Positions 217 through 23,175 of a DNA stretch of 34,573 bases are shown here, one piece after another; the stretch's first letter is position 1, and every line of letters starts with the position of its first letter. The position numbers and the translations under genes were made by a program. The stretch covers positions 1 to 34,573 of the forward strand of contig JANQHV010000032.1 in the NCBI GenBank assembly GCA_028282505.1, in the 5' to 3' direction. The DNA is from SAR324 cluster bacterium (GTDB lineage Bacteria; SAR324; NAC60-12). The notes under the pieces were generated by a model. It was not told the origin of the DNA and ran no database searches. It worked only from the letters and a program-made list of their open reading frames with translations.

Positions 217-1218
217 TTATGCTTGAACTACCAAGCGAGCATGAGAACTGAGACGATGCTGCTGAAGAAATGCTTTGAACGATTGATGAGCTTCCTGGTC
301 TCGTTTTTCAATCAAATAACGAATAAAAGGAGGCACATCGAATTGAGGATTATGTCGCATAAAGTTTGCCACCACTTCCAAGTCTAACTGTCCAGGGGTT
401 GAAAGTTCTCTGACGGTTAAACCATAATTTTCAAATAAAGCAACCAATCCTTCTATAGAAAATAACGTAACGCGATTAGGAGGTAAAATCGACTTGGCAT
501 GCTCTCCCAAAATTTGTAAATCAAACCCAGAAATTGTACGAGTCGTTAATACTAAAATTCCTCTAGGAGCCAAAACTCTTTTTACATGCTGGACGAATAT
601 CTCACTACGAAAAATGCCATCCAAATAATCAAAGGCACTTAACACTGAAATCGAGTGATCTGTTTGATTGGCTAATCGTTCAATAGGGGCAACTGAATTA
701 CGAAGCGACTCCTTCATCCAAAAAGGAGAATAATATTGTGCTTTTTCAAAGAATCTTTCCTGAATTATTTGTTCCAGAATCGCAGGATACTTGGTTCCTA
801 AATCTAAATAAAATTCTCGAGGGGCTCCATACTCAACAACTGCGTCCAAAATCCAGTTAACCCTGCGATAAAAAACTTCCTGGTGCGTTTTAGATTCTAA
901 TCGTGTTAGATATTCCTGAACATAAAATTGATGAGAGGGAGATTCTTGATAATATCGATTTAAGGCCTCATTAGTTGGTATTTCACGGACATATAATGAA
1001 CCACATTGGTTGCATGCCAAATAATGAAAACCGAGCTTCATAAATACTTCTGTTGATCCCTCGGCATGACAACCAGGACATGCAATTCTCTCTTCTTCAT
1101 ATTGGTTAGATAAATAATAAGGGATGTCTTTGTTGAGTAAAGACATATAATGAGCAAATTGTTCCTGTGGCCGCAATTCTACTTCTCTAATTTCATCAAG
1201 AGTGACCACATTTTTCAT
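217..1218 (-). CDS. Class I SAM methyltransferase with N-terminal zinc-ribbon-like module
   Basis: A 333-residue protein probably transferring a methyl group from SAM to a sugar or sugar nucleotide in the cytoplasm. Cys47, Cys50, Cys69 and Cys72 form two CxxC pairs typical of the zinc-ribbon head of polysaccharide-cluster methyltransferases. A Rossmann-type core follows: a degenerate motif I (LDLGTKYP, residues 138-145) and a late LxPRGxLVLTT strand (216-226). The LSTPGQLDLEVV segment (272-283) is characteristic of sugar C-methyltransferase-like proteins in O-antigen loci. The expected GxGxG glycine loop is not intact, so SAM binding may be altered. The ATG overlaps the stop of the upstream oxidoreductase by 4 bp (ATGA), with an AAAGGA ribosome site inside that gene, so the two are likely translationally coupled. 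The fold call is solid; the substrate is unknown. Confidence 0.8.
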   Translation of the reverse strand: MKNVVTLDEIREVELRPQEQFAHYMSLLNKDIPYYLSNQYEEERIACPGCHAEGSTEVFMKLGFHYLACNQCGSLYVREIPTNEALNRYYQESPSHQFYVQEYLTRLESKTHQEVFYRRVNWILDAVVEYGAPREFYLDLGTKYPAILEQIIQERFFEKAQYYSPFWMKESLRNSVAPIERLANQTDHSISVLSAFDYLDGIFRSEIFVQHVKRVLAPRGILVLTTRTISGFDLQILGEHAKSILPPNRVTLFSIEGLVALFENYGLTVRELSTPGQLDLEVVANFMRHNPQFDVPPFIRYLIEKRDQEAHQSFKAFLQQHRLSSHARLVVQA

Positions 1219-2237
1219 AAACTATCCTTTCGGCTTTCCCACCATTTGGGATCAGCCCGATAAATCCGATAAACCAAATCAATTGCATTGAGCGCATCTG
1301 CAGAAGACCCTATTTGTACAGGTCGATCTTTTTGAATACAATCTAAAAATTCTTCTAGTTCTCGTTCCCAGGAGTGATCCTGATCAAAAAAATAATTTTC
1401 CTCATTGGGATTTCCCATTCTTTCTTGCTCATAAGTCTTACGGGCCACTGTCAAAGATTCCCTTCCATAAGAACGAGAACCCGAAAGAATGCCATTTAAA
1501 GCAATATACCCCTCGGTAAGGGTAATTATTAAATCAAACGTATGCTTCCATTGTGTGGCAGAAGAAAGAAGCATGCCGATCTGTCCCTTCTGATTCCTCA
1601 TCAGAACAAAAGCATTATCTTCCACTTCAATATCCCAAAATAATGCGTCGACAAAACTGTGAATTTCTGTGAATTCATGGCAAAATAACAGCATCAAATC
1701 CAGCATATGAATCCCTTGGTCAAGAAGGATTCCCCCGCCAGAACGCTGCATTTGATTTCGCCACTCCTTTTCAAATTCAAGAGAACCTGACTTTCCGTAG
1801 ATACCTCTTACAGAAAGTACATTTCCCAAGCGTCCGCTATCAATTAAACGCTTTGCTTGAACAACAGAATCATGATAACGATGATTAAATCCGAACTTAA
1901 GTTTGAGATGTGGATTACGACGTTCTGCTGCAATCATACGGCGTGTTTCCTCAACAGTCCTGCCAGGGGGTTTTTCCGCAAAAACATGACAACCCCTATC
2001 CAAGGATTGTATCACTATCTCAGCAATAACGTCATTGGAAGTACAGACAAATACAATATGAGGAGTGCGATCTAATACAGCAGAGGGGGTTTTAAAAACA
2101 GGACACTCAGGCAAAATACTCAGGGGCAAATCAGAGAGTTCACAAACTGAATCTAACTCCAGAAGCGGCGAATTTCGAACAAGTTTTGCTCGCAGTTGAC
2201 CAATTTTTCCATATCCAATAATTCCGACTTTAAACAT
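1215..2237 (-). CDS. Gfo/Idh/MocA family oxidoreductase
   Basis: A 340-residue NAD(P)-dependent sugar oxidoreductase. The N-terminal Rossmann fold shows GxGxxG (GYGKIG, residues 9-13) and the family's EKP motif at 88-90, whose lysine is the usual catalytic residue. The C-terminal substrate domain has the GGGILLDQGIHMLDL signature, with Asp173 and His177 as likely active-site residues. Length is normal. Such enzymes oxidise or reduce a ring hydroxyl of a sugar nucleotide or cyclitol. It lies between an AroB-like cyclase and a methyltransferase, so its substrate may be the cyclase product or a derivative; that is inference from position only. The start has no strong ribosome site but agrees with the family's usual N-terminus. 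Confidence 0.88.
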   Translation of the reverse strand: MFKVGIIGYGKIGQLRAKLVRNSPLLELDSVCELSDLPLSILPECPVFKTPSAVLDRTPHIVFVCTSNDVIAEIVIQSLDRGCHVFAEKPPGRTVEETRRMIAAERRNPHLKLKFGFNHRYHDSVVQAKRLIDSGRLGNVLSVRGIYGKSGSLEFEKEWRNQMQRSGGGILLDQGIHMLDLMLLFCHEFTEIHSFVDALFWDIEVEDNAFVLMRNQKGQIGMLLSSATQWKHTFDLIITLTEGYIALNGILSGSRSYGRESLTVARKTYEQERMGNPNEENYFFDQDHSWERELEEFLDCIQKDRPVQIGSSADALNAIDLVYRIYRADPKWWESRKDSL

Positions 2238-2294
2238 ACAGATGGAGAAGTACAGCCTAGTAAAATTTTATAAGGAAGTGAGTGTTTTTGCTAA

Positions 2295-3386
2295 TCAGGC
2301 TACAGCCCCAATTTGTTTAAGATAATCCACAATAATGGTTTGAGAAGTTTCAACCAATGGAACACGATGTTTAAACATTTTGCCAAATCCCTTTGTGAGA
2401 ATGAAATTCACCCGGTCATCAATATTCTTTTTATCCTTTCTTAACGCATTCCAATAATCATCCAGGGATTCTATGAAAAACTGATGCTGTTTGGTATTCT
2501 CTTTTACCAACGTATTCATTTTCTGATAATCGTCTTCTGACAGAAAACCCATTTGCCAAGACATATAGTTTGCCAGGCCAATCCCAAAAGTAACAGCAAT
2601 TCCATGAGGCACCACATAATTTGTGACAGATTCTATTGCATGACCAAACGTATGACCATAATTCATAATATTGCGATAATCTCGATCATACTCATCAATC
2701 TCAATCACTCTTTTCTTAATGACTAAACTGTCATAAATCACTTGTTCCATGACATCAGGGTCCGACAAAGCTCTCTGATAATGATCAAAGATCTGTTGAA
2801 AGCGTCGTTCCTCATCCAAATAATGAACTTTGATGGCCTCTCCCAGGCCAGAAAGTACATCCTGTTCTTCCAGAGTTTGCAGAAAGTTCACATCAATGAT
2901 GACCTTTTGAGGAGGATAGAAGGTGCCCATCTGATTTTTAAAAAGGCCGACATTGATAGAACTCTTACTCCCAATACAACTATCACACTGAGCTAATAAA
3001 GTGGTTGGATACAACACCCATTGGATTCCCCGAAAAAGAGTTGACGCAATAAAACAGGTAATGTCTTGCGTGATCCCTCCACCAATTCCAATTAACTGAT
3101 AATTTCGCTTCACACCATGTTCAATCAAATACACAATGATTTTTTCAGCAGAAGCCAATGATTTATTATCTTCTGTTGCATCTAACAAATAAACAACCTG
3201 ATTTTTCAGAAGAGGAGCTAATGTTTTTTGGTAAATTTGAGAGACATTCGCATCTAAAATAACAGCACTCGGCTGCTCAAGATCACTTTTTAAAGATTCT
3301 GCAAAAGCACTAACAAATTGTGCCTGATAATCCTGGATATTAGACTCAATCTCAATCGACCGTCGAACATTTTTAGAAGAGTTCAT
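2295..3386 (-). CDS. AroB-like sugar phosphate cyclase (3-dehydroquinate synthase superfamily)
   Basis: NAD- and metal-dependent cyclase of the 3-dehydroquinate synthase / 2-epi-5-epi-valiolone synthase superfamily, about 363 residues. Visible motifs are the GIGGGITQD dinucleotide loop, RGIQWVLYPTTLLAQ, a GSKSSINVG substrate loop, the metal-ligand motif GLGEAIKV, NYGHTFGHAIE with two histidines, and VPHGIAV. The substrate loop differs from canonical AroB (GGKTGVNHP) and the last motif lacks the usual Glu of HGEAV. That argues against housekeeping shikimate synthesis and for cyclisation of another sugar phosphate into a cyclitol or pseudosugar precursor. The start is taken at ATG 3384-3386, preceded by AAGGAA at 3390-3395; an in-frame ATG at 3461 would overlap the SDR gene and add an atypical N-terminus. 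The exact product cannot be read from sequence. Confidence 0.85.
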   Translation of the reverse strand: MNSSKNVRRSIEIESNIQDYQAQFVSAFAESLKSDLEQPSAVILDANVSQIYQKTLAPLLKNQVVYLLDATEDNKSLASAEKIIVYLIEHGVKRNYQLIGIGGGITQDITCFIASTLFRGIQWVLYPTTLLAQCDSCIGSKSSINVGLFKNQMGTFYPPQKVIIDVNFLQTLEEQDVLSGLGEAIKVHYLDEERRFQQIFDHYQRALSDPDVMEQVIYDSLVIKKRVIEIDEYDRDYRNIMNYGHTFGHAIESVTNYVVPHGIAVTFGIGLANYMSWQMGFLSEDDYQKMNTLVKENTKQHQFFIESLDDYWNALRKDKKNIDDRVNFILTKGFGKMFKHRVPLVETSQTIIVDYLKQIGAVA

Positions 3387-3438
3387 AGATTCCTTCAAAT
3401 GCAATAGATTAATTCGATTTAACAGACAGACACATACA

Positions 3439-4185
3439 TCAATGACTGACAAACCCACCATCTACTACGATGTTTTGTCCTGTGAGATACGTATTGAGAT
3501 CACTGGCTAAAAAAAGTACTGTATTTGCAATCTCTTCTGGTTGAGCAAATCTCTGCAAAGGAACCTGTTGTGCTAGCTCATCTCTTTCTGCAGAAGAAAG
3601 TATATTCAATGTCAACTCTGTCATCACAAAACCAGGGGAAATAGAATTTACCAATATATTGTATGGGGCCAAGTCCAGAGCAATTCCTTTTGTAAAACCA
3701 ATCAAACCAAACTTTGTTGTAGAATATACAGATCGTTTTGCCTTACTGACAACACCAAAAATTGAGGCAACATTAACGATTTTTCCCGATTGACAAGGGA
3801 TCATTTTTCGTGAAACCAATTGAGTCAATAAATACACACCTTTCAAATTGACCTGCTGAAGCAAATCCCAGTCTTCTTCTTGAATTTGATCTACCGGATT
3901 GATCTTATTTACCCCAGCATTATTGATCAACACATCCACACTCGGCAAACTATCAATCCAATTGGATAAATTGTCCAGAGACTCTTTTTGAGTAAAATCA
4001 ACAGCCCAGTAATGTCTTCTAGCATCTTTTGCATACTGCTGATTCAACTCTTTTATTTGCTCTTCCTGAGTTCCGGTACCATAGACTATTGCCCCTGCCT
4101 GATAAAAAGTGTCTACTAAGGATGCTCCAATTCCCCGTGTTCCTCCTGTAACTATCACCGTTTTATTGGTAAAATCTATTTCCAC
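3439..4185 (-). CDS. Short-chain dehydrogenase/reductase (SDR)
   Basis: Classical SDR of about 248 residues. It has the TGGTRGIG cofactor loop, NNAG, the catalytic Ser in VNVASIFG, the YSTTK catalytic Tyr/Lys, and a C-terminal LTGQNIVVDGG strand typical of FabG-like enzymes. It probably oxidises or reduces a keto or hydroxy group on a glycan precursor. The start is uncertain: a TTG at 4207-4209 gives 8 more residues and a 4-bp overlap with the upstream radical SAM stop, while the GTG at 4183-4185, used here, follows an AAAGGA-like site and gives the usual SDR N-terminus. It sits directly upstream of the AroB-like cyclase, which makes a shared pathway plausible. Confidence 0.87.
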   Translation of the reverse strand: MEIDFTNKTVIVTGGTRGIGASLVDTFYQAGAIVYGTGTQEEQIKELNQQYAKDARRHYWAVDFTQKESLDNLSNWIDSLPSVDVLINNAGVNKINPVDQIQEEDWDLLQQVNLKGVYLLTQLVSRKMIPCQSGKIVNVASIFGVVSKAKRSVYSTTKFGLIGFTKGIALDLAPYNILVNSISPGFVMTELTLNILSSAERDELAQQVPLQRFAQPEEIANTVLFLASDLNTYLTGQNIVVDGGFVSH

Positions 4186-4205
4186 ACTTTCCTTTATTAT
4201 CAATA

Positions 4206-6341
4206 TCAATTCGACAAGGTATAACGAACAAACCTATCTGGCTCTATTTCATCACTCATTTGGTTTGTGCTACTATGTCCATATAGTTTAATGTTTCTGA
4301 ATAAGCTCTCAACATTACTTACACGAGTGACAATTTTACTTAGCGCATTATGATCTGTTCCGTAGCGAGCAAACTGATCTGTACGGGCTTTAATTTGTTC
4401 AGTGGTATAGAAAAACTCATATTGGATCGATTCTTTCAGCAAATAATTTGATAAAGAGACACTTCCATCGGATTTCGACCATCCAATAAGATCATAATCA
4501 CTCACCATCTGGAGAGAAGAAACATCAGCATTCACCTGCAACAAACCGTTTAACTTTTTCTTAACAAATTCAGAGACTTGACTTATTTCGTGTTCTCGTT
4601 GCTCAATCTCTTCTTTAGTAGCGGCGTATTTCTTGGCCATATTCACACAAATTTGGGCGAGAAAATCACTCCATTCGTTTGAGCAATCAGCTAATCCCAT
4701 TGCTTTGTGTTTATATATAATGTTCCCACCAATTTTTCCATTGAGCAAATTTTGATAATTCTCTTCTTCCTCAAAATACTGGATCAGCTCTTCACCAGAT
4801 TCCCATAATTCTGATTTGGTTTCATCAATAAAACTTTGATACACCTTTTGAACTTTTGTTGGAGCCAGATGAATATTCTCATACAAATGCACGATAAAAT
4901 CAAAGATAGTCAAACCCCATATCCTTGTATAATTAAAAAACTCATGAAAAGGTCTGCTATTATGAATCATTTCAATGATGTAACACAATCCGCGAATCCA
5001 CAGATAGTCCTCAAACGGCATGTCTTTTGTTGCTATTCCAATTTCTTCGGTATCAAATACTTTTTTCCCTTCGTACTCACCAAAATTTAATGCAACAACC
5101 CTATGCTTACCTTGAATTTGAAAATTTGCCTTGTAATCTGGATCTTGAAAATCGGTCCCATACAAAAGCATAAGAGAGTAAGAACAAATTTGTGAAACTC
5201 CAGAATCCAACATTTTGCGAATCCCGGTTACAAAGGACTGCCTGGTTTCTCCTGGCAAACCGATAATCACCTCTCCTTTTGTTGCACGTCCCCGTTCATT
5301 TAAAGACTTGTTGATTTCTATATAGTCTTCCAGTTTTATGTTATCTCTTTTAATATTTTTCAAAACTGTTGAATCCATTGATTGAACAGACATATTCACT
5401 GAAAAAGTATTTCCCAGGATTTGAGTTGCTTGAATGACTCGTTCTTTTTGATTTTTTCCAGTTGTAGACATTATATGCAATGGCCACGAATATTTTTCCC
5501 TGGTTTCATATAAAACTTCACAGATTTCTTTATCTCTTGCGAACATACCAAAGTTTGTATCTGCTATATGCAAATTGACTATTCCCAATTTTTTCATAAT
5601 GGGAGCAATATACTGTATTTCTTCTTTAATGCGATCCAAACTAAACATATTCATTTTATTATAGTAATCGATACCCGTATGGCAAAATGAACATCTAAAC
5701 GGGCATCCCCGATTAGTTTCAAGAAATGGAGTTAATTTGCCATCAAAAAACGGGCTCAATATACCACTTAAGTAAGGCGATGGAATTTCGTCTAAATCGC
5801 GAATTCTTTTGAGAGATTCTCCTTTACAAAGCTCAATATCTGTATCCTCTCCTCGATTTTTAATAAACACACACCCTGGGATTGCTCGCTCAAAAACAGA
5901 TTGTTGACTCTCTCTGCTGGTTAATACTCTTTGAATAATTTGAGAAAAAGTTATTTCTCCTTCAGATTCTACAAAAATATCTGTATTGGGTCTGGTCTTC
6001 AAAAATCTTAACTGTGTATCAGCACGATGAGGGAAGTTGGTTCCTCCCTGTACAGTGATAACATGCTTATTATATTGTTTTGCAATTCCGGCTACATGCT
6101 CTGACAGTCTGCTGTTCCAGGAATAATTACTCAGGGCAATTATATCAGGAGGAGTTTCTTTAATGGCCTCTATAATAGTTTTAGGATACTTAAAAAGAGA
6201 AATATCTATATCTTTTCCAAAAACCTTCTTTGCATAGGCAGCAATGAAACCTATATTGATAGGGATAGTATCTGACACCAGTATGATGGTATCATGAGTC
6301 AAATCTCCCATGAATATTTTCAAGGGCTTAGTGGTATTCAT
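4206..6341 (-). CDS. B12-binding-type radical SAM protein (group g)
   Basis: A 711-residue protein with a cobalamin-binding-like Rossmann domain at about residues 10-145, followed by a radical SAM core. The [4Fe-4S] cluster motif CPFRCSFC supplies Cys213, Cys217 and Cys220. Further core features are the EGEITF segment near 128 and the SMQSMDSTVL and GEVIIGLPGETRQSF strands, as in BchE/P-methylase-like enzymes. A canonical DxHxxG base-off motif is not evident, as in many members. The remaining 300 residues have no recognisable domain. Family members methylate unactivated carbons or rearrange rings; the substrate here is unknown, but the neighbours point to a sugar or cyclitol. The ATG has a GGAG site 7 nt upstream, and a 109-bp gap precedes it. 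Confidence 0.85.
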   Translation of the reverse strand: MNTTKPLKIFMGDLTHDTIILVSDTIPINIGFIAAYAKKVFGKDIDISLFKYPKTIIEAIKETPPDIIALSNYSWNSRLSEHVAGIAKQYNKHVITVQGGTNFPHRADTQLRFLKTRPNTDIFVESEGEITFSQIIQRVLTSRESQQSVFERAIPGCVFIKNRGEDTDIELCKGESLKRIRDLDEIPSPYLSGILSPFFDGKLTPFLETNRGCPFRCSFCHTGIDYYNKMNMFSLDRIKEEIQYIAPIMKKLGIVNLHIADTNFGMFARDKEICEVLYETREKYSWPLHIMSTTGKNQKERVIQATQILGNTFSVNMSVQSMDSTVLKNIKRDNIKLEDYIEINKSLNERGRATKGEVIIGLPGETRQSFVTGIRKMLDSGVSQICSYSLMLLYGTDFQDPDYKANFQIQGKHRVVALNFGEYEGKKVFDTEEIGIATKDMPFEDYLWIRGLCYIIEMIHNSRPFHEFFNYTRIWGLTIFDFIVHLYENIHLAPTKVQKVYQSFIDETKSELWESGEELIQYFEEEENYQNLLNGKIGGNIIYKHKAMGLADCSNEWSDFLAQICVNMAKKYAATKEEIEQREHEISQVSEFVKKKLNGLLQVNADVSSLQMVSDYDLIGWSKSDGSVSLSNYLLKESIQYEFFYTTEQIKARTDQFARYGTDHNALSKIVTRVSNVESLFRNIKLYGHSSTNQMSDEIEPDRFVRYTLSN

Positions 6342-6450
6342 AATTTTGCTCCAAATTTATAAAAGCTTAATAAACCCTGTAACCATTCACCAATCTTCTG
6401 TTTGAGAATTACACAAAACCTGTATCTATTCAATACCACCATTACACAAA
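6342..6450. other. Intergenic gap with a 10-bp direct repeat
   Basis: A 109-bp gap upstream of the radical SAM gene starting at 6341. The decamer ATTACACAAA occurs twice on the + strand, at 6408-6417 and 6441-6450, with starts 33 bp apart (about three helical turns). It could be an operator or chance. I see no clear sigma-70 pair or terminator. Confidence 0.25.
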
Positions 6451-7473
6451 TTAACCTATTTCTTCCTGAATTCTTCTCAACAATCTGAGAGTTTCACGGT
6501 TCAAATTCACTCTATTTTCAATCGTAGCTAGCTCTTGGGGTAAAGCCATAATCTTGATGCCCAGGTAGCTTAGATTCTGGCAATCTGCTGCCAACAAACA
6601 TCGTTTTATTTGCTCAGGAGTCATCAATGCATGTTTAGTAGAAAACAGATTGTCATCCATATCAGATGGTGGCATATGAGTGTCTTTCCAAACTCCGTAA
6701 GCTGTATCCTGGTTCGAACAACCTGAAAACATCAATCCTTTCAGAAATCCAGCCTCTTTTGCCTGAAGTACATGAATCACAGGAGTTTCTGTTTGCCTTG
6801 TTTCTAAGACAGATCGTGCCCAATTAATGGTGATTCCCAGAGAAAGCTGTTCTGCCAAAGGTAGAACATTTTTTATTGCCTGAATTTCTTCCTCCAATGT
6901 TAAAAATCCTTTCTCAGGAATATGAGATTTAGAAAAAGCATCACAATGCTCAACAACCAAATCAGCTCCTTGCCAATCCCACAGAATCAACTCTTGTAAA
7001 GAACGCTGAAATGCCTCGCCAGAAGATTCTCCTGGAATTGCTGATCTTTGAGGAGCCGATACGAATTGCACAGCAATTACGCTTTGTTTACCTGTATGTT
7101 CATTAATTTGATGCACTGCTTGTTGGGCAAGTTTCATGAAATTTAACGCCAACATACGTCCTTCTGGATTGTTGGAAGCTAATCCATGCGAAGGCAATTT
7201 AGTCATCTCCTGCATGGTTCCAGGAACACAAGTGAGCACAATTTCCCATGAAGGTTCTAAATGTTCCAGAAACCATTGCTCATCAAACGGATGAAGGCTA
7301 CCCCAAAAAGGGTGCTCTAGCCCGCGTAAATAAGGCAAAGATCGAATTCCCTCCCAATATTCCTCTTCCTGTGTTTGATTCCAATCAAATAGACAGGGAG
7401 AAGTCACATAGGCTCCGACAATATAACCCTTTCGAAAATTCTCAGCTGTCACTCTATCAATTGCGATACTCAT
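6451..7473 (-). CDS. DUF4862 family protein
   Basis: A 340-residue protein that I recognise as DUF4862, an uncharacterised TIM-barrel-like family resembling sugar isomerase/epimerase proteins. Shared features are the N-terminal YIVGAYVTSP strand, GLEHPFWGSLHP, the VPGTM strand, an SAPQRS segment, VVEHCDAF, PEKGFLTLEEE and the late GLMFSGCS strand. His, Glu and Asp residues at strand ends could bind a metal or sugar, but no catalytic role is established for the family. The gene overlaps the sulfotransferase gene by 17 bp, so the two are probably co-translated. The start at 7473 has no obvious ribosome site, though the resulting N-terminus fits the family. Its presence in a surface-glycan locus is unusual; function is unassigned. 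Confidence 0.78.
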   Translation of the reverse strand: MSIAIDRVTAENFRKGYIVGAYVTSPCLFDWNQTQEEEYWEGIRSLPYLRGLEHPFWGSLHPFDEQWFLEHLEPSWEIVLTCVPGTMQEMTKLPSHGLASNNPEGRMLALNFMKLAQQAVHQINEHTGKQSVIAVQFVSAPQRSAIPGESSGEAFQRSLQELILWDWQGADLVVEHCDAFSKSHIPEKGFLTLEEEIQAIKNVLPLAEQLSLGITINWARSVLETRQTETPVIHVLQAKEAGFLKGLMFSGCSNQDTAYGVWKDTHMPPSDMDDNLFSTKHALMTPEQIKRCLLAADCQNLSYLGIKIMALPQELATIENRVNLNRETLRLLRRIQEEIG

Positions 7474-8563
7474 CTAAAAAAACTTTGCCCAAATATTCTT
7501 TTTCATATGCTTCCGATAACCGATCCATCACATCGAGTGCATCCTTTTTAACGTCTTTCTTGACCATTTCTCTTCGCAAACGAAACTCGTCCACTTCACT
7601 TGCTGACTCAGAAGGTTGCCAGCCACACCGCTCATAAATCGGGAGATTGATACCATCTGCGATCATTCTTCGAGGTACTTTTTGTCGCTTCATTTCTTTT
7701 TTGGTTATCCAGGTCACCCTTGTTCCCAGTTCAGAAACGATTTGCTGCAAATAAGGCTCTGGTGCTAAAACAAATTTTTCAAAAGGAACGGTGATGATCT
7801 TTGCATTGTACTTAGCTCGACATCGTTGAGCGGCTTCTTCTATCCTTCGCGTCATTCTGTCAATTAAATAAACTGCTCGCTCCATGTAGGAGGAGGCCAG
7901 ATAAAGCTCTTCCCATCCATGGACATAGTAAGGTAACTGCATATCCTGGTATTCGAAATAAACATTCACATTTCTAGGATTCGATGGGAGTCGTTCCATA
8001 TTAAGAGCTTGCTGCTTAACCATATACAAAGGATGCCGAACGACATGAATCATGAGGACGTTTTCTTGTAATCCTGCAAAAAAAGGTTCTCCATCCGCAA
8101 GAAGATTATGAGCAGCCAGATGTAAAATAGGACGCTCTCTTTGAATTCTTTCGGGGATGATCTCATCTCCTTTCTGAAAGAAACGCACCAAGTATTTTAG
8201 AGGATTGGGAGCCCGAAATACACTGGAAAGATCTTTCCATCGGCAGTTCATCTCCCGCCCCATCATCCCATGATACAATCTGTGATCACACATCATTTTA
8301 ACCCAGGCAGCAGCTGCATCCTCCGAAATCTTACCCAGTTGATGAAATCGGCAAATGAATTCAATTTCAACAGGAAAAGACATCAATTCTACCCTGTCTA
8401 AAGCGCCAACAATCGGAGATAACATGGTTTTACCACAACCAGGCTGACCGTCTACAATTACAACTTTTTGTGTCAGGACATTTTTACGGACAACCTTTGG
8501 TACTGTAGAAAAAATAGAAGTATTTTGTTCTTTTTGCATAAGAGTGTTTAAACTACCAGGCAT
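7457..8563 (-). CDS. Sulfotransferase family protein
   Basis: A 368-residue P-loop protein likely to move sulfate from PAPS to a hydroxyl of the glycan or its precursor. The 5'-phosphosulfate-binding loop is GQPGCGKT (residues 39-46), and the 3'-phosphate-binding strand is HVVRHPLYMVKQQ with Arg176 and His177. A conserved Trp/Tyr-rich middle and a basic C-terminal segment follow. The first ATG (8561-8563) is supported by a GGAGG at 8569-8573, 5 nt upstream, inside the upstream SDR gene; an internal ATG at 8539 has no such site. The gene overlaps the SDR by 11 bp. Sulfate on a bacterial surface glycan is uncommon, and no PAPS synthesis gene is visible in the window. Other P-loop kinases are possible but fit less well. 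Confidence 0.75.
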   Translation of the reverse strand: MPGSLNTLMQKEQNTSIFSTVPKVVRKNVLTQKVVIVDGQPGCGKTMLSPIVGALDRVELMSFPVEIEFICRFHQLGKISEDAAAAWVKMMCDHRLYHGMMGREMNCRWKDLSSVFRAPNPLKYLVRFFQKGDEIIPERIQRERPILHLAAHNLLADGEPFFAGLQENVLMIHVVRHPLYMVKQQALNMERLPSNPRNVNVYFEYQDMQLPYYVHGWEELYLASSYMERAVYLIDRMTRRIEEAAQRCRAKYNAKIITVPFEKFVLAPEPYLQQIVSELGTRVTWITKKEMKRQKVPRRMIADGINLPIYERCGWQPSESASEVDEFRLRREMVKKDVKKDALDVMDRLSEAYEKEYLGKVFLDEYRN

Positions 8564-9380
8564 TCAATCCTCCATCTATGATAATATTTTCTCCTGTTAC
8601 ATAACTAGATGCATTTGAGGCCAAATAAAGCAAGGCACAAACCATTTCATCCTGATTTGCCATTCGCCCTAAAGGGATTCTAGCAGAATATCGAGATTTG
8701 AATGTTTCATTTTGTCCACTTTCCACACCACCTGGAGTTAGAGCATTGACTCGAATTCCATGAGGTGCCCAATAAGTAGCAAGGTATTTAGTCAAACCAA
8801 TCACCCCCGCTTTAGAAGCAGAATAAACCGCAGGGGTATTGATCTGTCGCTCAAGATAATAGGAGTCTTCATAAATTCTTTGATCTGGAGCCATAATGCC
8901 ATATATTGACGCAGTCTGAATGATACTGCCCCCTTTTTTCTGTTTTACCATCTGTTTGCCTACTGCCTGTGCCACCAAAAACATACCGTCCAGGTTCACC
9001 GACATCACCTTCCGCCATTCCTCCAAAGAATACTCTTCAAATGGCGCAAAAAAGGATTCAAGATCATCGGACTTACTCGCAGCGTTATTGTGTAAGATAT
9101 GAACCTCCCCAGACCAGTCTAGTACTCTATCCACCATTGCTTTAACGGAATCAGGCGATGACACATCACAACCAATACCAATGGAAGAATGTTGATAGGT
9201 TTCTTGTAACTCATCCGCCAGCTCCTGGCTCAAAGACTCATCTAAATCGACAACAGCAACATTGGCACCCATTTCTGATAAACCATGACAAAATCTTTTT
9301 CCTAAAATTCCAACACCACCCGTTACTACTGCATTTTTCCCTCTTAGATCAAATTGTTGAGAAAAAGTATTCATTTCCAT
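8553..9380 (-). CDS. ptmA: SDR oxidoreductase, PtmA-like
   Basis: An SDR of about 275 residues. Seen are the TGGVGILG cofactor loop, HNNAAS, the IQTASIYG catalytic Ser strand, a short insertion (EDSYYLERQ) before the YSASK catalytic motif, and a VTGENIIIDGG C-terminus. This layout and its place beside a CMP-nonulosonate synthetase and a PtmF-like oxidoreductase match PtmA (Cj1332) of the Campylobacter legionaminic acid locus. PtmA and PtmF are placed early in that pathway, at the amino-sugar stage, and their exact chemistry is less certain than that of the other enzymes. The start is taken at ATG 9378-9380, 5 bp after the upstream stop; an in-frame ATG at 9422 would overlap that gene and add 14 atypical residues. 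Confidence 0.8.
   Translation of the reverse strand: MEMNTFSQQFDLRGKNAVVTGGVGILGKRFCHGLSEMGANVAVVDLDESLSQELADELQETYQHSSIGIGCDVSSPDSVKAMVDRVLDWSGEVHILHNNAASKSDDLESFFAPFEEYSLEEWRKVMSVNLDGMFLVAQAVGKQMVKQKKGGSIIQTASIYGIMAPDQRIYEDSYYLERQINTPAVYSASKAGVIGLTKYLATYWAPHGIRVNALTPGGVESGQNETFKSRYSARIPLGRMANQDEMVCALLYLASNASSYVTGENIIIDGGLNAW
8569..8573 (-). promoter_or_regulatory. Ribosome binding site fixing the sulfotransferase start
   Basis: GGAGG on the minus strand, 5 nt before the ATG at 8563. It selects this start over the internal ATG at 8539 and lies within the last codons of the preceding SDR gene. Confidence 0.65.
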
Positions 9381-9385
9381 AATTG

Positions 9386-10087
9386 TTAATTGAGTTGATG
9401 TTCCATGAGAAAACGAACCCATTCAAAATCAAGATTCGAATCGATATCGACAGAGCGCTCTTCCGGCATTTCAAACAAACGGGTATCATGATGGAAAACA
9501 CCAGGGACATCTGAAAACAGGGCAGAGCGTTTCCACACATATATAGAGGCGTTCATATCATAGCACTGAGGCGCATCCTGGCGTCGAACAACAGGAGCCT
9601 GTAAATCTTTTGACAGTCGTACCACTTGGTCATCCCCAATTTCTACGAGATTGAAATAAGGCGAACGACGGGCTCTCGCTCCAGTAATAACATTCGAAAC
9701 CCCTGTCTTTTCTAATAAATTTATACAATCTTGAATGTCTTTCACCGTGCGTAGAGGAGAAGTTACATCCAAATCAACAATTACATCAAACCGTTCTTTT
9801 CTTTCTTTTTCAACGACATTCACACAATGTTGAATAGCTGGAATTTTCGCAGCAACATCTGAAGCCAACTCAGGTGGTCTCTGGATCAAATATTCAATCC
9901 CCCAGGATTGAGCAACTTCAAGAATCTCAGAAGCATCACTACTCACCGCAATACCATCAAACATATTGGTTTCCATTGCCTGCTCTAAGCTATAAGCAAT
10001 AAGAGGTTTTCCCAACAAATCACGAATATTCTTATTTTTGACTCCCTTAGACCCACCACGAGCACAGATGGTACATAAACGTTTCAT
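9386..10087 (-). CDS. legF: CMP-nonulosonic acid cytidylyltransferase (NeuA/LegF/PtmB-like)
   Basis: A 233-residue acylneuraminate cytidylyltransferase that couples CTP to a nonulosonic acid to give the CMP-sugar used by glycosyltransferases. The N-terminus carries the CTP-binding motif ARGGSKGVKNKNI, then the DVTSPLRT strand with metal/sugar-binding residues, the GARARRSPYFN segment, and a C-terminal ERSVDIDSNLDFEW motif. It has the single-domain length of LegF/PtmB and Neisseria-type NeuA. The ATG at 10085-10087 overlaps the upstream stop by 4 bp (ATGA). Family assignment is firm; whether the sugar is legionaminic, neuraminic or a variant cannot be decided, so the symbol rests on the ptm-like gene order. 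Confidence 0.9.
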   Translation of the reverse strand: MKRLCTICARGGSKGVKNKNIRDLLGKPLIAYSLEQAMETNMFDGIAVSSDASEILEVAQSWGIEYLIQRPPELASDVAAKIPAIQHCVNVVEKERKERFDVIVDLDVTSPLRTVKDIQDCINLLEKTGVSNVITGARARRSPYFNLVEIGDDQVVRLSKDLQAPVVRRQDAPQCYDMNASIYVWKRSALFSDVPGVFHHDTRLFEMPEERSVDIDSNLDFEWVRFLMEHQLN

Positions 10088-10998
10088 GAAAAAATCCACT
10101 GTTGCGTATCAATTGAACTTTCAATGGCATCAATCATCTGCAGGACTTCAAATCCTTCTTCTGCAGTACATAACGTACCGGAATTTCCTGCCAGCATGGA
10201 CATGTGTTGCTGAAGATAAGTCTGGTCTCTTGGAATATCCCCAGACAACAATATTTCTGAATCCTTCTTCAAATGTCCTTTTATAAGATCAGCAATGAAA
10301 GTATGACGAGTCGTGTTGATTATTAATTTGCGTTGCCCAGGCTTATCTAAATAGTTGATTTGAAGAGAAATACCAGGACAACGCTGGGTTGAAAACAAAA
10401 CAGATACAACATCCTCTGTCTCAATCTCCAAATTACTGTAATGCCCCCCAATTGCAGCAAGTGATTTCCATTTTCCAAACAGCCACATGAGATAGTCCAA
10501 TTCATGGCTGAGGTCTCTTAACACCCCACCTCCCTCTTTTCGAAAAGCAGAGTAGCTCCGACGATAATCACTCTCTGGTCTCCAATTTGGCAGATACTGT
10601 CCAGCGTAAACTTGAGCCGATATTATTTTCTCATCTCCAATTTCTTGCTTAATTCTTTGAAGCACAGGATGAAATCGTAAATTGTAGGCTACGCAAAACT
10701 GAGAAAATTGATGGTTGAATAAAGAGTTTGCGTGATGAAAGAGAGGTTTTTCTACCAGGACTTTACCAGAAAATCCCCGATCAACCAATTGAACTAAAGT
10801 GTTGTAATGCTCTTGGGTTTTGTTAGCAATCACAATATATTGCGGTTGTTCCTTTTCCAGAGCAGAATTCAGATCAAAATAACTCTTCTCCCATTCCTTA
10901 GAGTGCCGACTCACGACACTGACTTCTCCGCCCAATTCCTTTAAAAGACGAGCGTGTCTCCGTCCAATGGAACCATATCCCACAACCACGATCCTCAT
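10084..10998 (-). CDS. ptmF: Gfo/Idh/MocA family oxidoreductase, PtmF-like
   Basis: A 304-residue NAD(P)-dependent oxidoreductase with GYGSIGRRHARLL at the N-terminus (Rossmann GxGxxG), the VEKPLF motif carrying the usual catalytic lysine, and a GGGVLRDLSHELDYL segment in the substrate domain. It is slightly shorter than typical family members. Its place between the acyltransferase and CMP-sugar synthetase genes matches PtmF (Cj1330) next to PtmB in Campylobacter, so a role in making the amino-sugar precursor of the nonulosonic acid is likely. Protein family is clear; the PtmF label is inferred from neighbourhood. Confidence 0.85.
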   Translation of the reverse strand: MRIVVVGYGSIGRRHARLLKELGGEVSVVSRHSKEWEKSYFDLNSALEKEQPQYIVIANKTQEHYNTLVQLVDRGFSGKVLVEKPLFHHANSLFNHQFSQFCVAYNLRFHPVLQRIKQEIGDEKIISAQVYAGQYLPNWRPESDYRRSYSAFRKEGGGVLRDLSHELDYLMWLFGKWKSLAAIGGHYSNLEIETEDVVSVLFSTQRCPGISLQINYLDKPGQRKLIINTTRHTFIADLIKGHLKKDSEILLSGDIPRDQTYLQQHMSMLAGNSGTLCTAEEGFEVLQMIDAIESSIDTQQWIFS

Positions 10999-11016: not shown

Positions 11017-11643
11017 CTATCTAGGAGTAGCCGGATTGCCATAGACTTTTATTCCATCGCATAGCGAGCGAATCACTACTGAGCCTGCCCCAATCACACA
11101 CTCTCTTCCGATTTGAACCCCCTGGATGACAACAGCTCCCGTTCCAATATGTGTTTTTTCGCCTACAACAACACTACCGGACAATGTGGCCCCAGGAGCA
11201 ATGTGACAATGCTCTCCAATTTTACAGTCATGGTCCACTATGGCTCCAGTGTTGACTATGACATTATTCTTCAGTTCCACACCACATTGTAGGACAGCAC
11301 CTGCTAAAACTTGAGACCCTTCGCCTAAAACACAAGACGTCCCTAGTATCGCCTGGGGATGAATAACCGAAGCGAAACGATATCCGTGTTGTTTAAATTT
11401 ATTAAATAGCTGCTCTCGTTGGAAAACTTTCTCGACACTTCCTAATCCATTTACCAAATCAACATGATCAGGCTGATATTGTTTCATGACTTCATCACCG
11501 CCCAAAATGGGAACGCCTAGAATAGTGGAGCGAGAACTAGATGGATCCAAGACTCCTAAAATGGGATGGTCTTTTTTTTTAAGAGTGTCAATCAGTACTC
11601 CGGCGTGACCACCACCGCCTAAAATCAGGAGAGGTTTCTGCAT
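11017..11643 (-). CDS. neuD: NeuD/PglD-like sugar acyltransferase
   Basis: A 208-residue acetyl-CoA-dependent O- or N-acetyltransferase. The N-terminal Rossmann-like domain begins LLILGGGGHAGVLIDTL, binding the sugar nucleotide. Residues about 95-195 are left-handed beta-helix hexapeptide repeats, with the VDHDCKIGEHCHIAPGATL segment supplying the catalytic His pair seen in PglD and NeuD. It could act as the N-acetyltransferase of a 4-amino sugar (the LegH/PglD step) or O-acetylate the finished nonulosonic acid (NeuD role). Position directly after neuB suits either. It is separated from neuB by 17 bp and from the ptmF-like gene by 18 bp, consistent with one transcript. Confidence 0.88.
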   Translation of the reverse strand: MQKPLLILGGGGHAGVLIDTLKKKDHPILGVLDPSSSRSTILGVPILGGDEVMKQYQPDHVDLVNGLGSVEKVFQREQLFNKFKQHGYRFASVIHPQAILGTSCVLGEGSQVLAGAVLQCGVELKNNVIVNTGAIVDHDCKIGEHCHIAPGATLSGSVVVGEKTHIGTGAVVIQGVQIGRECVIGAGSVVIRSLCDGIKVYGNPATPR

Positions 11644-11660: not shown

Positions 11661-12734
11661 TTAATCAATTAATTCGTCGGTTTCATAATCACGCGGGGCT
11701 TGCTTGCCGAGCCACTCCCAAAATAACATAGGAGATATGCCATTACCTGGCCGTTTAACCCCCAGATTATCCTTTGTGAAAATTTCCCCTTTTTTAATAG
11801 GAAGTGCAGCTACAAGGCTTTTACGCGCAGCAACAATGTTTTTGATTTCTGAAGGTGAAGGGATTTTACGAGAATCCCCTAAAGCTTGTTGAACTTGCCG
11901 AATTGACTGGATCATCTGGATTAGTTCTCGAGGCTCTAAAGAAGCTCGATGGTCCGGTCCTGGTAATTCTCGACTTAAAGTAAAATGTTTTTCAATCACA
12001 CAGGCCCCTCTTGCCGCAGCAGCGATGGGAACGGCAATGCCTTCGGTATGATCAGACAAACCAACATCGAGATTGAAGGCTGTTCTCAATGTTTCCATGG
12101 CCCGAAGATTGACATCCTGAAAAGGACTGGGATATTCCGTGGTGCAATGAAGCAACGTAACGTTTTTTTTCAAACACTCATATCCTTCATTAGAGTAATA
12201 GGCAGTCCTAAACGCCCTTAAAGATGGAGACTCCTTACTGTTCAAAAAACCAAAGGCCAGTGTTCCTAAAGCCGTTTCAATCTCTTGTAAACCACACATT
12301 CCTGTTGATAAAATTACTGGCTTACCTTTTTCAGCCACACTCAACAAAAGCAAAGGATTTGTCAATTCTCCGGAAGGAATTTTAAAACGTGACAAGTTAA
12401 ACTGGGAAGAGAGAATCTCCAGGCTCTCCAAATCAAAAGCAGTTGATAAAAACTCAACTCCTTTTTGTTGGCAATACTTGTATAATTCATCATGCTCATC
12501 GGTTCCCAATTCCAATTTTTTAAGCATGGCCATCTGTGACTCTGTTTGATGGGTTGATAACTTCTGATATTCAGCTTTTGGGGCATACTGACTCACTAAC
12601 TGCTCAGCTTTAAAAGTCTGGAACTTTATAGCGTCAGCCCCCGCTTCTACAGCCACATCGATTAGTTGACGTGCAACCGACAATTCTCCATTATGGTTGA
12701 CCCCCGCCTCTGCAATAATATAAACCTTCCTCAC
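11661..12734 (-). CDS. neuB: Nonulosonic acid synthase (NeuB/LegI family)
   Basis: A 357-residue synthase condensing phosphoenolpyruvate with a 6-carbon N-acyl sugar (ManNAc or its 2,4-diacetamido analogue) to form a 9-carbon nonulosonic acid. The TIM barrel shows AEAGVNHNGE, KFQTFKAEQL, IPSGELTN, LHCTTEYPSP, GLSDHTEGI and EKHFTLSR with GPDHRASLEP. A C-terminal SAF/antifreeze-like domain (about residues 290-350) contains RSLVAA-type and VKRPGNGISP motifs. The start is GTG (12732-12734) after GAGAGGATGA; the nearby ATG at 12738 is out of frame. Sequence alone does not separate neuraminic from legionaminic substrates, but the adjacent PtmE-like gene favours the legionaminic type. Confidence 0.93.
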   Translation of the reverse strand: MRKVYIIAEAGVNHNGELSVARQLIDVAVEAGADAIKFQTFKAEQLVSQYAPKAEYQKLSTHQTESQMAMLKKLELGTDEHDELYKYCQQKGVEFLSTAFDLESLEILSSQFNLSRFKIPSGELTNPLLLLSVAEKGKPVILSTGMCGLQEIETALGTLAFGFLNSKESPSLRAFRTAYYSNEGYECLKKNVTLLHCTTEYPSPFQDVNLRAMETLRTAFNLDVGLSDHTEGIAVPIAAAARGACVIEKHFTLSRELPGPDHRASLEPRELIQMIQSIRQVQQALGDSRKIPSPSEIKNIVAARKSLVAALPIKKGEIFTKDNLGVKRPGNGISPMLFWEWLGKQAPRDYETDELID

Positions 12735-12750
12735 TCATCCTCTCATAGAT

Positions 12751-13920
12751 TTATGGTAACTCAGGCAAATCATAGAATTTTTTAAAGATGATTTGTGATA
12801 GGTCTCTGGTCTTTAACACATGCTTAATTTTCTCAGAAGTGTTTCCTACCCCATAGGGAGGATTGACATGTTTTAATGAATTTTGAAATTCAGGAGATAG
12901 CGCTTTTTGAATAGCACTCACAATAGAATCTTTATTCTCATCACAGTCAATAATTGAAGCACACTTTAGCCGCCCAGCCTGCCTCTTTCCAATATTGACG
13001 GTCGCTTTTTTAAAAACTGGAGTCTCAATGATCCCACTAGAGGAGTTACCAATAACCACATCCGTCTGTTTCAAAACACTGTAATAACGTAATTGGCCAA
13101 GACTTGAAAAAGATTTCGCTCGCCCGCGATTTGCTCCAACAAATTTATCGATTTTCGCTCCAATCACCCTCCCATCCGTATCTGAGTTTTGTTTTGTGAA
13201 AATTACATGGGCTCCGGGAAATTCTTCTATGGCTTCAAGCAAAGCCTGAATCCCTATCTCAGTATGATTCAATTGCAAGGTGACTGGATGGTAGGTGACC
13301 AAAAAATTTATTTGGCCAAAAGAAAACTCCAAAGCTTTCTCTAAGGATCCTCGGGGAAGTAATCGGGTTTTCGCAATCGCTTCCAATCCTGGAGCGCCCA
13401 CATTAAAAACAGAGTCAGGATTTTCTCCTAATTGAATAACCCGTTGGCGATAAACTTGAGCAGATACAAAATGCAAATGTGACATTTTCGTAATAGAATG
13501 ACGAATGGCGTCATCCACCGCTCCTGCGGTAATCTCGCCTCCATGTAAATGGGCGACAGGGATTCGAGCGATTAGGGCTGATTGAACTGCGGCTAAAATT
13601 TCATATCGATCTCCCAAAACCACTATAACTTCAGGTTTTATCCTTTCCCAAACCTCAGCAAATCCTATGGTTCCCAAAGCAATCGATTTGGATATTCCAA
13701 CCGGTGTGTCACTCGAAAGAACCGTCTCTACTTTCGCATCAATGCCAAAATCATCTTTCTCAATTTGCCGGTAAGTTAAACCAAATTCTGGTGAAAGATG
13801 CATTCCAGTGACAACAACCTGGAGGTATAAATCAGGATCGCTTTTAATCTCCTTCATCAGCCAAAACAGGAGTCCATATTCGGCTCGGCTTCCGGTTACA
13901 ACGCAAATCCTCTTATTCAT
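12751..13920 (-). CDS. neuC: NDP-sugar 2-epimerase, hydrolysing (NeuC/LegG family)
   Basis: A 389-residue GT-B-fold epimerase that inverts C2 of an NDP-GlcNAc-type sugar and releases NDP, giving the N-acyl mannosamine substrate of NeuB. The N-terminal domain starts VVTGSRAEYGLL; GDRYEILAA and HLHGGEITAGAVDDAIRH follow; the C-terminal nucleotide domain has VTYHPVT and the GNSSSGIIETP loop. Length is normal. The next gene upstream encodes a PtmE-like guanylyltransferase, so the donor may be GDP-linked as shown for LegG in Campylobacter, rather than UDP-linked as in NeuC. It lies 16 bp upstream of neuB. No ribosome site stands out at this start. Confidence 0.92.
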   Translation of the reverse strand: MNKRICVVTGSRAEYGLLFWLMKEIKSDPDLYLQVVVTGMHLSPEFGLTYRQIEKDDFGIDAKVETVLSSDTPVGISKSIALGTIGFAEVWERIKPEVIVVLGDRYEILAAVQSALIARIPVAHLHGGEITAGAVDDAIRHSITKMSHLHFVSAQVYRQRVIQLGENPDSVFNVGAPGLEAIAKTRLLPRGSLEKALEFSFGQINFLVTYHPVTLQLNHTEIGIQALLEAIEEFPGAHVIFTKQNSDTDGRVIGAKIDKFVGANRGRAKSFSSLGQLRYYSVLKQTDVVIGNSSSGIIETPVFKKATVNIGKRQAGRLKCASIIDCDENKDSIVSAIQKALSPEFQNSLKHVNPPYGVGNTSEKIKHVLKTRDLSQIIFKKFYDLPELP

Positions 13921-13987: not shown

Positions 13988-15052
13988 TTACTCCGTATTG
14001 TTTGAGAAGATATAAGCGAATTCTCCATTTGCCCGGATCAAATCATCTTTTTGTCCAATATCTAACCAATATTCCCGAATGGGAAAGGCACTTGTTACAA
14101 ATTTTTGCTGAATCAGTTGATCAAATAAGGTAGGCATATCATAATATTCTTGACTGGGAATTAAAGACAACACCTCTGGTTGTAAAACATAAACACCTGC
14201 ATTAACAAAAAAACGATGAACTGGTTTCTCACTAATTTGTCGGATTTCGTGCTTTTCGAGATCCATTGAAACAACACCATAAGGAACTTGAAAATCATAC
14301 TCCCTTACACACATCGTGGCACTTGCCTCATGCTGAACATGAAATTCCATCAATTGATGAAAATTTATTTTTGTCAACAAGTCTCCATTCATTATAATCA
14401 ATGGAGATTTTGGTTTTTCAGACAGTAAACTCAAGGCACCTGCTGTTCCTAAAGGTTGTTCTTCTCGCAAATACTGGATGCTCACATCCCATTTTGTCCC
14501 ATCACCAAAATGATTTTCAATGATTTCTGATTTATAATTGACTGATAAGAAAAAACGATGAAAACCATATTGTATAAAATTTTCTAATATGGTTTCCAGT
14601 AACGGCTTATTTCCTACCTTGAGCATAGGTTTTGGACAGTCATCCGTTAAAGGACGAAGTCTGGAACCAAACCCTCCCACCATCACAACCACCCAATTAT
14701 CCCGATGCAGAGTATGAGGTAAATCATTTAAAAAAACGATATTCGTCACTCTTCCTTTTGAATCAATCATAGGAAGATGACGAAAACGAGTACTTTCCAA
14801 CAAATTAATTATTTGTTGATGCTCCATACCCTCTGGAACCGTCGTTGGACTTGAGTTCATTATTTCTGTTATAGGAGCATCTAAAGAAATCCGACGCAAC
14901 AAACCTCTACGAATATCCCGGTCCGTAACCATTCCTAAGAGCTTTCTCTCTTCGTCAACTATGAATGCAGCCTGCATTCGGTGCTGGTCAATAGTCTCAA
15001 TGGCATCCTGAATCGTAGATGTTTTGCTGATTAATGCTTTTTCCCAATGCAT
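13988..15052 (-). CDS. ptmE: CBS-domain sugar-1-phosphate nucleotidyltransferase, PtmE-like
   Basis: A 354-residue fusion of an N-terminal CBS pair (about residues 8-118, with VTDRDIRRGLL and a second repeat ending LNDLP) to a nucleotidyltransferase domain (about 120-350). The pyrophosphorylase signature VGGFGSRLRPLTDDCPKPM is followed by MNGDLLT, which carries the metal-binding Asp, and VNAGVYVLQP. This architecture is that of PtmE (Cj1329), the glucosamine-1-phosphate guanylyltransferase that makes GDP-GlcN for legionaminic acid. The CBS pair may sense a nucleotide. ATG at 15050-15052 follows an AAGGAA about 10 nt upstream. It heads the nonulosonate cassette, after a 182-bp gap with a repeat. 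Sugar and nucleotide specificity are inferred from architecture and gene order. Confidence 0.88.
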   Translation of the reverse strand: MHWEKALISKTSTIQDAIETIDQHRMQAAFIVDEERKLLGMVTDRDIRRGLLRRISLDAPITEIMNSSPTTVPEGMEHQQIINLLESTRFRHLPMIDSKGRVTNIVFLNDLPHTLHRDNWVVVMVGGFGSRLRPLTDDCPKPMLKVGNKPLLETILENFIQYGFHRFFLSVNYKSEIIENHFGDGTKWDVSIQYLREEQPLGTAGALSLLSEKPKSPLIIMNGDLLTKINFHQLMEFHVQHEASATMCVREYDFQVPYGVVSMDLEKHEIRQISEKPVHRFFVNAGVYVLQPEVLSLIPSQEYYDMPTLFDQLIQQKFVTSAFPIREYWLDIGQKDDLIRANGEFAYIFSNNTE

Positions 15053-17133: not shown

Positions 17134-18201
17134 TTAAACAAAATTTGAATGATTTTGATCTGCATTTAGATACTGAAGAATCATTTGGTTTTTAAGATTC
17201 GCGACACAATGATGATTACAATGGAGAGACGGATTAATCTTATAAAATTTTTCTTTCCCTTTGGACCAAAACGTCGAGAAGCGCTGAGTTTTGATACTGC
17301 CGATTTGACCAGTTGGAGTATAAGCTTTATCTTGACACGAATAGACATTCAAATCAGCACCTATCACACAAAGCATCTGTAAAAAAGGACACCAGGTGTA
17401 ATCTTTATCGAATTTTTCATCCAATTCATGGTAGGCATCAAATACTTCAAAATCAGAATTTGAGGTTTCTGCCAATAATCGATCCACTTGTTGGCGTACC
17501 AATCCGAAAACAGGTTGTTGGTATGCATTGCTCTCCTTACTGTCATTACTAACAATGCAAGCTGAAACTTTCACACTGTCTACTCCTAAATCTTTTAGTC
17601 GAGAAACAGTATCATATACATGAGCAGCGTTTTTCTGATCAACAATAAGGCTAATGCCTAAATAACATTTGCCATTCAATCGCTTAAAATTTTTTAAACG
17701 GTCCATCAGTTTTGTGAATTCACCCAAGCGTATACTTCTATATTGAGAATAGCTTTCATCATCCCATCCGTCTAAAGACACCCTCAACCAAGTCCCGTGG
17801 TGGGCAAACACTTCCGCAAGTTCGCCGTCCAAACGGGCCCCGTTGGTTAATGAAGCGAATTGAATGGGGCTGTCTGCCAAGCGTTTGACAGTTTTTAACA
17901 ACGGTTTATATAAAAAAGGATCTCCACCACCACTGAAGGTAACCGCCTTCACTCCCATTTCGATAATGTCTTCCAGAATCTCCATCATTTTTTCCTCTGG
18001 AATTTGATCTCGTGCCTCCATATCACTTCCCAGCTGCAAATCATCAGCTTTATAAGCACAGTACCAGCAACTATGTCCACACATATTGGTCGGTTTGATA
18101 CGGATGTGGATCGGCGGCAAGATCTTGGAATCTCCAGGAGTTAAGCTATTTATTTTTTCAGAATAATGGAAAATTTTGTAAGGAGTATATAGTAGAGCCA
18201 T
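17134..18201 (-). CDS. Radical SAM / SPASM domain protein
   Basis: A 355-residue radical SAM enzyme. The cluster motif CGHSCWYC gives Cys41, Cys45 and Cys48, and the FSGGGDP strand binds SAM methionine as in the family. The C-terminal third is rich in Cys (CPFLQMLC, VYSCQDKA, HCNHHC), which fits a SPASM-type region for auxiliary iron-sulfur clusters. SPASM enzymes oxidise or crosslink peptides or act on small molecules such as aminoglycosides; no precursor peptide gene is seen nearby, so a carbohydrate substrate is more plausible here. The start is taken at ATG 18199-18201, with GGAG at 18211-18214 placed 9 nt upstream; a TTG at 18216 would add five residues. Confidence 0.85.
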   Translation of the reverse strand: MALLYTPYKIFHYSEKINSLTPGDSKILPPIHIRIKPTNMCGHSCWYCAYKADDLQLGSDMEARDQIPEEKMMEILEDIIEMGVKAVTFSGGGDPFLYKPLLKTVKRLADSPIQFASLTNGARLDGELAEVFAHHGTWLRVSLDGWDDESYSQYRSIRLGEFTKLMDRLKNFKRLNGKCYLGISLIVDQKNAAHVYDTVSRLKDLGVDSVKVSACIVSNDSKESNAYQQPVFGLVRQQVDRLLAETSNSDFEVFDAYHELDEKFDKDYTWCPFLQMLCVIGADLNVYSCQDKAYTPTGQIGSIKTQRFSTFWSKGKEKFYKINPSLHCNHHCVANLKNQMILQYLNADQNHSNFV

Positions 18202-18262
18202 TGGCTTATGCTCCAATTAGTTTCATGATGTGATAACACGTGATTTCTGCCGAGCCCCTCCC

Positions 18263-19839: not shown

Positions 19840-19847
19840 TTTTTCTT

Positions 19848-19854
19848 CTCCTTT
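19848..19854 (-). promoter_or_regulatory. Ribosome binding site fixing the HemN-like A start
   Basis: AAAGGAG on the minus strand, 8 nt before ATG 19839. It makes the shorter protein (479 residues) far more likely than the upstream in-frame start at 19899. A weak promoter-like pair (TTGAAA at 19891-19896, TATAAA at 19870-19875, 15-bp spacer) lies just upstream; it is too short-spaced to call. Confidence 0.7.
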
Positions 19855-20038
19855 TATAAAATTCAGTTCTTTATAGCTACCGGGAACCTGTTTCAACACA
19901 GGGCTGGTAGTCTATCAGACTTGTTTTGATGAATAATCTTCTCTTAAAAAATTGATATTATTACACTGATAATTTTTAAATCCAGCGATTTGCACTTGTT
20001 CGCCTGTGCATCTTTAAAAAATCTACAATTTAAAAGCA

Positions 20039-21022: not shown

Positions 21023-21030
21023 GGTAATGC

Positions 21031-22035: not shown

Positions 22036-22077
22036 AATGTTTTTTGTTCTTTAAACTGATCTCACTATCCACACAGC

Positions 22078-23169: not shown

Positions 23170-23175
23170 ACAATT

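Follow-up and report, generated by a model that had tools for sequence, protein, structure and literature searches.

The window analyzed here, a stretch of 34,573 nucleotides (positions 1 to 34,573) of contig JANQHV010000032.1 of a SAR324 cluster bacterium, encodes a homolog of AroB, the 3-dehydroquinate synthase (DHQS), among sugar-modifying genes, which raises the question of what an AroB-like cyclase does in such a setting. A first-pass annotation of the sequence had suggested that it belongs to a pathway for a valiolone- or inosose-type cyclitol in a surface glycan, together with a short-chain dehydrogenase (SDR), a Gfo/Idh/MocA oxidoreductase, a methyltransferase and a B12-binding radical SAM protein. 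These five reading frames were all open and tightly packed on one strand, and Pfam agreed with the assignment of each (Table 1). For the cyclase, a start at position 3386 matched the N-termini of relatives more closely than did position 3461, to which the longest frame extends. There were 4-base overlaps between the methyltransferase-like and Gfo/Idh genes and between the SDR and radical SAM genes, while 52 bases separated the SDR from the cyclase and 57 bases separated the cyclase from the Gfo/Idh gene. The contig stops 216 bases past the methyltransferase-like gene. In the other direction the neighborhood extends well past position 8563, with NeuB, NeuC, CMP-transferase and PtmE-like genes up to 15052. 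The placement of the cyclase in a surface-glycan locus is supported.

Table 1. Genes of the window around the cyclase, in order of position.
Feature	Coordinates	Strand	Remarks
Methyltransferase-fold protein	217..1218	-	N-terminal CPxC/CxxC zinc-ribbon-like motif
Gfo/Idh/MocA oxidoreductase	1215..2237	-	GxGxxG and EKP motifs
Sugar phosphate cyclase homolog, NCBIfam TIGR04425	2295..3386	-	Pfam DHQ_synthase; GSKSSINVG loop
Classical SDR	3439..4209	-	NNAG and YxxxK kept; directly upstream of cyclase
B12-binding radical SAM protein	4206..6341	-	CPFRCSFC motif
DUF4862 protein	6451..7473	-	Pfam
P-loop protein, weak sulfotransferase match	7457..8563	-	24.1, below the Pfam cut-off of 27
Second SDR, adjoins CMP-transferase	8553..9422	-	Pfam
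CMP-sugar cytidylyltransferase, PseF/NeuA-like	9386..10099	-	Profile matches
Second Gfo/Idh/MocA protein	10084..10998	-	Pfam
PglD/NeuD-like hexapeptide acyltransferase	11017..11643	-	
NeuB-family nonulosonate synthase	11661..12734	-	
NeuC-like UDP-GlcNAc 2-epimerase family protein	12751..13920	-	
CBS and nucleotidyltransferase protein, PtmE-like	13988..15052	-	

Elsewhere in the window there were tandem paralog pairs at 20039-24252 (genes starting at 20039 and 21031, 71% identical, and at 22078 and 23176, 50%) and at 29100-31654 (29100 and 30380, 81%), with no Pfam match among the members tested. The glycan locus also contained five radical SAM genes (4206-6341, 17134-18216, 18400-19899, 26286-28169 and 31713-33119), two of them with B12-binding domains and two HemN-like and 40% identical to each other.

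The cyclase matched the NCBIfam family TIGR04425, named 'AroB-related putative sugar phosphate phospholyase (cyclizing)', with 439.8 bits (cut-off 400) over positions 1-347 of 348, and it scored below the cut-off of the AroB model (280.3 bits vs 305). A separate true AroB was encoded in the same genome on contig C78, and a second AroB homolog was present in 28 of the 29 genomes with a TIGR04425 gene, 25 of these homologs scoring above the AroB cut-off. A tree was inferred from the 29 TIGR04425 proteins, the AroBs of the same genomes, solved DHQS enzymes, and EEVS, DDGS and DOIS (2-deoxy-scyllo-inosose synthase) references. The TIGR04425 proteins formed one clade (support 100/99), recovered in all 200 bootstrap trees and apart from the AroBs, EEVS and DDGS. 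The phylogenetic placement proposed in the first-pass annotation yielded a distinct clade, which may be a sister of DHQS or may have arisen inside it, the EEVS, DDGS and DOIS references lying on long branches. The outcome named there as a refutation, grouping within true DHQS as the only aroB of the genome, was thus not seen: the protein has a clade of its own, and the genome encodes a second AroB. These results indicate that the cyclase is, as first proposed, a non-shikimate sugar phosphate cyclase homolog; its family is catalogued but uncharacterized.

Assembly contamination was considered and is unlikely, since G+C content was similar in the window contig (38.5%) and at the AroB locus (40%), and since the cyclase and AroB both pair with those of a second genome of the same class (G045). 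That genome has a third AroB-like gene (G045:C107:57458-58450), which scored below the AroB cut-off (221.6 bits vs 305).

Comparison of 29 TIGR04425 loci from many phyla showed two mutually exclusive gene settings, type A (18 loci, including the window) and type B (11 loci: L046, L071, L074, L075, L078, L079, L080 and L084-L087). Every type A locus contained a Gfo/Idh gene and no type B locus did, while an acetolactate-synthase-like TPP enzyme was found in none of type A and in all 11 of type B. Type A was further marked by a 2-hydroxyacid dehydrogenase resembling PGDH (16/18 vs 0/11) and a KdsB-, NeuA- or PseF-like CMP-sugar transferase (17/18 vs 0/11). Fisher tests of the split gave values of about 1e-4 or lower, to be read with the facts that related loci are not independent and that two of the genes defined the types. 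Other type A genes encoded a GmhA-like SIS isomerase (13 of the 18 loci), a methyltransferase-like protein (11), an HpcH/HpaI aldolase (10), a PF04199 hydrolase (8) and a YhcH anomerase-like protein (6). HpcH-type aldolases of a different subtype were found in 6 of the 11 type B loci, and CDP-glucose or RfbH genes were present in some of the type B loci examined. The constant unit was the SDR-cyclase pair, its genes mostly overlapping, with the SDR in 26 of the 29 loci (type A 16/18, type B 10/11) and nearly always directly upstream. The setting switched at least two to three times on the tree, indicating that the same enzyme seems to be used in both. That the cyclase is dedicated to a surface-glycan pathway is well supported.

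The nearest relative of the window locus was that of G045, in which the SDR was 54.8% identical, the cyclase 61% and the Gfo/Idh protein 63%. The two loci also had in common the methyltransferase-like (45%), DUF4862 (55%) and sulfotransferase-like (46%) genes, and the G045 locus likewise included NeuB and a PseF-like transferase. Contig C348 of the window's own genome encoded NeuA-like and SDR proteins 68% and 55% identical to those beside the G045 cassette, a second pair of Gfo/Idh (48%) and methyltransferase-like (37%) genes, a transaldolase/FSA-family gene, an HpcH/HpaI aldolase (33%), a HAD hydrolase and a KdsB-like gene. This content indicates that much of the type A set is present in this genome, split over two contigs. 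In the C348 stretch L119:7126-11369 the Gfo/Idh-methyltransferase-like pair was followed by the transaldolase/FSA-family, aldolase and hydrolase genes, and no second cyclase was found there.

TIGR04425 was found in only 2 of 52 genomes of the phylum, those of the window and G045, and sporadically elsewhere (11 of 396, 5 of 395 and 4 of 397 genomes over three scans); named loci came from Bacteroidota, Fidelibacterota, Ignavibacteriota, Spirochaetota, Bacillota, Pseudomonadota and a delta-type endosymbiont of Olavius. Plasmid and phage collections contained no close relative of the cyclase, only AroB-like matches below 35% identity. The patchy distribution of the family among genomes would suit horizontal transfer of surface-glycan genes.

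The first-pass annotation had noted that the GSKSSINVG loop (cyclase residues 139-147) is unlike AroB, and this was borne out across the family: serine replaced the second glycine of the GGK loop in 25 of the 29 TIGR04425 members and in none of the AroBs compared. In the window protein all DHQS catalytic residues checked were kept. In an alignment of TIGR04425 proteins with the AroBs of their genomes and with BtrC (DOIS), ValA (EEVS) and Anabaena DDGS, the sequences of these three being taken from PDB matches or verified with them, the cyclase kept the metal ligands E183, H245 and H261, and the family kept R130, D146, K152, K161, N162, E194, K250, R264, N268, H271, H275, H287 and K356 (A. nidulans numbering). 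In the A. nidulans DHQS structure, some of these residues bind the carboxylate of DAHP. In the same alignment DOIS lacked R264, N268 and K356, EEVS lacked K250, N268, H275 and K356, and DDGS lacked K250, R264, N268, H275 and K356. EEVS (ValA, 4p53) and DDGS (5tpr) belong to the same superfamily and share the metal ligands, but their fingerprint replacements at K250, N268 and H275 were absent from the cyclase, which has K, N and H. DOIS (BtrC, 2d2x) shares superfamily and fold, but its replacements at R264, N268 and K356 were likewise absent, the cyclase having R, N and K. The valiolone- or inosose-type product first proposed is therefore not supported, and the retention of DHQS residues where the other three enzymes differ points to a DAHP-like substrate. 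K197 was replaced by His in 11 of the 29 members, all type A (for example L039-L043), while the window protein keeps Lys; chemistry or substrate may thus differ within the clade. An AlphaFold model of the cyclase (pLDDT 87.5) matched DHQS structures best (TM about 0.83-0.85), with DOIS structures close behind, so that the fold alone does not decide function. In sum, the cyclase resembles AroB in fold and in all catalytic residues checked, and differs from it in its separate clade, its loop, its score below the cut-off and its glycan context.

The best explanation of these data, though we put it at somewhat less than an even chance, is that TIGR04425 cyclases carry out DHQS-type chemistry on a carboxylate-bearing heptulosonate phosphate and that the product is tailored for a surface glycan. 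We infer from residues and gene context what class of substrate is used, in which order the steps run and where the product ends up. The substrate would most likely be DAHP or a closely related isomer, a 3-deoxy-heptulosonate 7-phosphate that is either produced by an aldolase or drawn from metabolism, and a carboxylate-bearing, DAHP-like compound of this kind seems likelier than sedoheptulose-7-phosphate or glucose-6-phosphate. HpcH/HpaI aldolases join pyruvate to aldehydes, and those recurring in these loci could supply it. The cyclase would oxidize the substrate transiently with NAD, release phosphate, re-reduce the intermediate and, assisted by a bound metal ion, close the carbon ring; the SDR and Gfo/Idh protein would then reduce or oxidize the ring, and the product would join or decorate a surface polysaccharide that also contains CMP-activated ulosonic acids. 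Several observations count against this explanation. Nearly all type A loci encode a CMP-transferase, and this suggests that the pathway ends in an ulosonic acid, which would not form directly from a quinate-like ring. For two other type A proteins, the GmhA-like isomerase and the 2-hydroxyacid dehydrogenase, there were only distant homologs elsewhere in this genome. The main doubt is that 2-epi-valiolone synthases (EVS), which use sedoheptulose-7-phosphate, have been reported to be DHQS-like in trees (PMC5133447), so that DHQS-like residues are no proof of a DAHP-like substrate.

A bolder reading, rather unlikely in our estimation, is that TIGR04425 is a new class of cyclase in which a DHQS active site converts an ulosonate phosphate other than DAHP, made by a pyruvate aldolase, to a carbocyclic acid found alongside CMP-sugars in the glycans of many phyla. 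If true, this would mean a widespread and previously undescribed carbocyclic residue in bacterial glycans.

A sedoheptulose-7-phosphate cyclase, providing a valiolone-type cyclitol for the glycan, is unlikely. The precedent of the EVS enzymes speaks for it, as do the GmhA-like isomerase of most type A loci, which belongs to a family acting on sedoheptulose-7-phosphate, and the transaldolase/FSA-family gene adjoining the aldolase on contig C348; the missing EEVS/DDGS substitutions and the separation of the clade from both enzymes tell against it. Still less probable is a second true DHQS that converts DAHP to 3-dehydroquinate, with the SDR forming quinate or a similar acid to decorate the glycan; the chemistry would be that of AroB itself and only the destination would be novel. 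The full DHQS active site and the modeled fold agree with this, but the sub-cut-off score, the separate clade, the altered loop and the K197 replacement in relatives do not, and neither a dehydroquinase nor a shikimate gene was seen in the vicinity.

It is improbable that the enzyme closes no carbon ring and acts only as a phospholyase, stripping phosphate from an ulosonate phosphate to leave a deoxy sugar acid for activation by the CMP-transferase. The frequency of CMP-transferases and 2-hydroxyacid dehydrogenases in type A would be accounted for, but the active site is unchanged, and in DHQS, after phosphate has been lost, the ring closes with little assistance from the enzyme. A glucose-6-phosphate cyclase of the inosose type is very improbable: the Gfo/Idh neighbor scored best against inositol 2-dehydrogenase, though far under the cut-off (109.8 vs 355), and the replacements typical of DOIS are missing. 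An AroB isozyme feeding only aromatic amino acid synthesis would explain the intact DHQS residues but is equally hard to credit beside a separate AroB in the genome and a glycan context conserved across phyla.

The methylation step attributed to the 217-1218 protein is doubtful: the usual SAM motif I is degenerate (DLGTKYP vs DIGAGFG in relatives), and the protein may, judging from its sequence, be inactive or have another role. Relatives were encoded in 10 other type A loci, and five relatives retained the glycine-rich motif. Some members of this family therefore have motif I and others, including that of the window, have lost it; a C-terminal motif (TPGxLDxxxV ... LSSH) was conserved even where motif I was lost. 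The radical SAM protein was a distant relative of KedN5-type C-methyltransferases (225 bits vs a cut-off of 700). Its gene is local to the window locus and was missing from related cassettes, and for this reason its proposed role in the cyclitol pathway was dropped. A DUF4862 protein was encoded near the cyclase in three loci (the window, G045 and L039), and its model, of moderate confidence (pLDDT 70), resembles xylose-isomerase-like sugar isomerases and epimerases.

We know of no enzyme of the TIGR04425 clade with an assigned activity, and no paper naming the family was found in the literature searched, which was only part of the whole; a search of it on cyclitols and O-antigens likewise found nothing direct. 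The family itself is not new, and the two gene contexts and the residue pattern come from the present analysis. A parallel is the EboD lineage, also uncharacterized and misannotated as AroB, which differs in lying near the sedoheptulose-7-phosphate cyclases and in being encoded in a prenyltransferase operon and not a glycan cassette (PMC5133447). Carbocyclic residues are very rare in bacterial surface glycans. The example found in the literature searched was bradyrhizose, an inositol-fused bicyclic sugar of an O-antigen (PMC4743980; PMC9912281), which sets a precedent for such a residue in a surface polysaccharide and whose biosynthesis genes, apart from a single cluster of 11, were described as unknown (PMC4743980).

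TIGR04425 is a protein class that automatic annotation tends to label 3-dehydroquinate synthase. In this bacterium a second AroB-related enzyme probably makes a carbocyclic building block for the surface coat. The occurrence of the cyclase with a fixed set of partners in many phyla provides a concrete list of genes for expression and assay, and with these conserved partners the product of a known family becomes testable.
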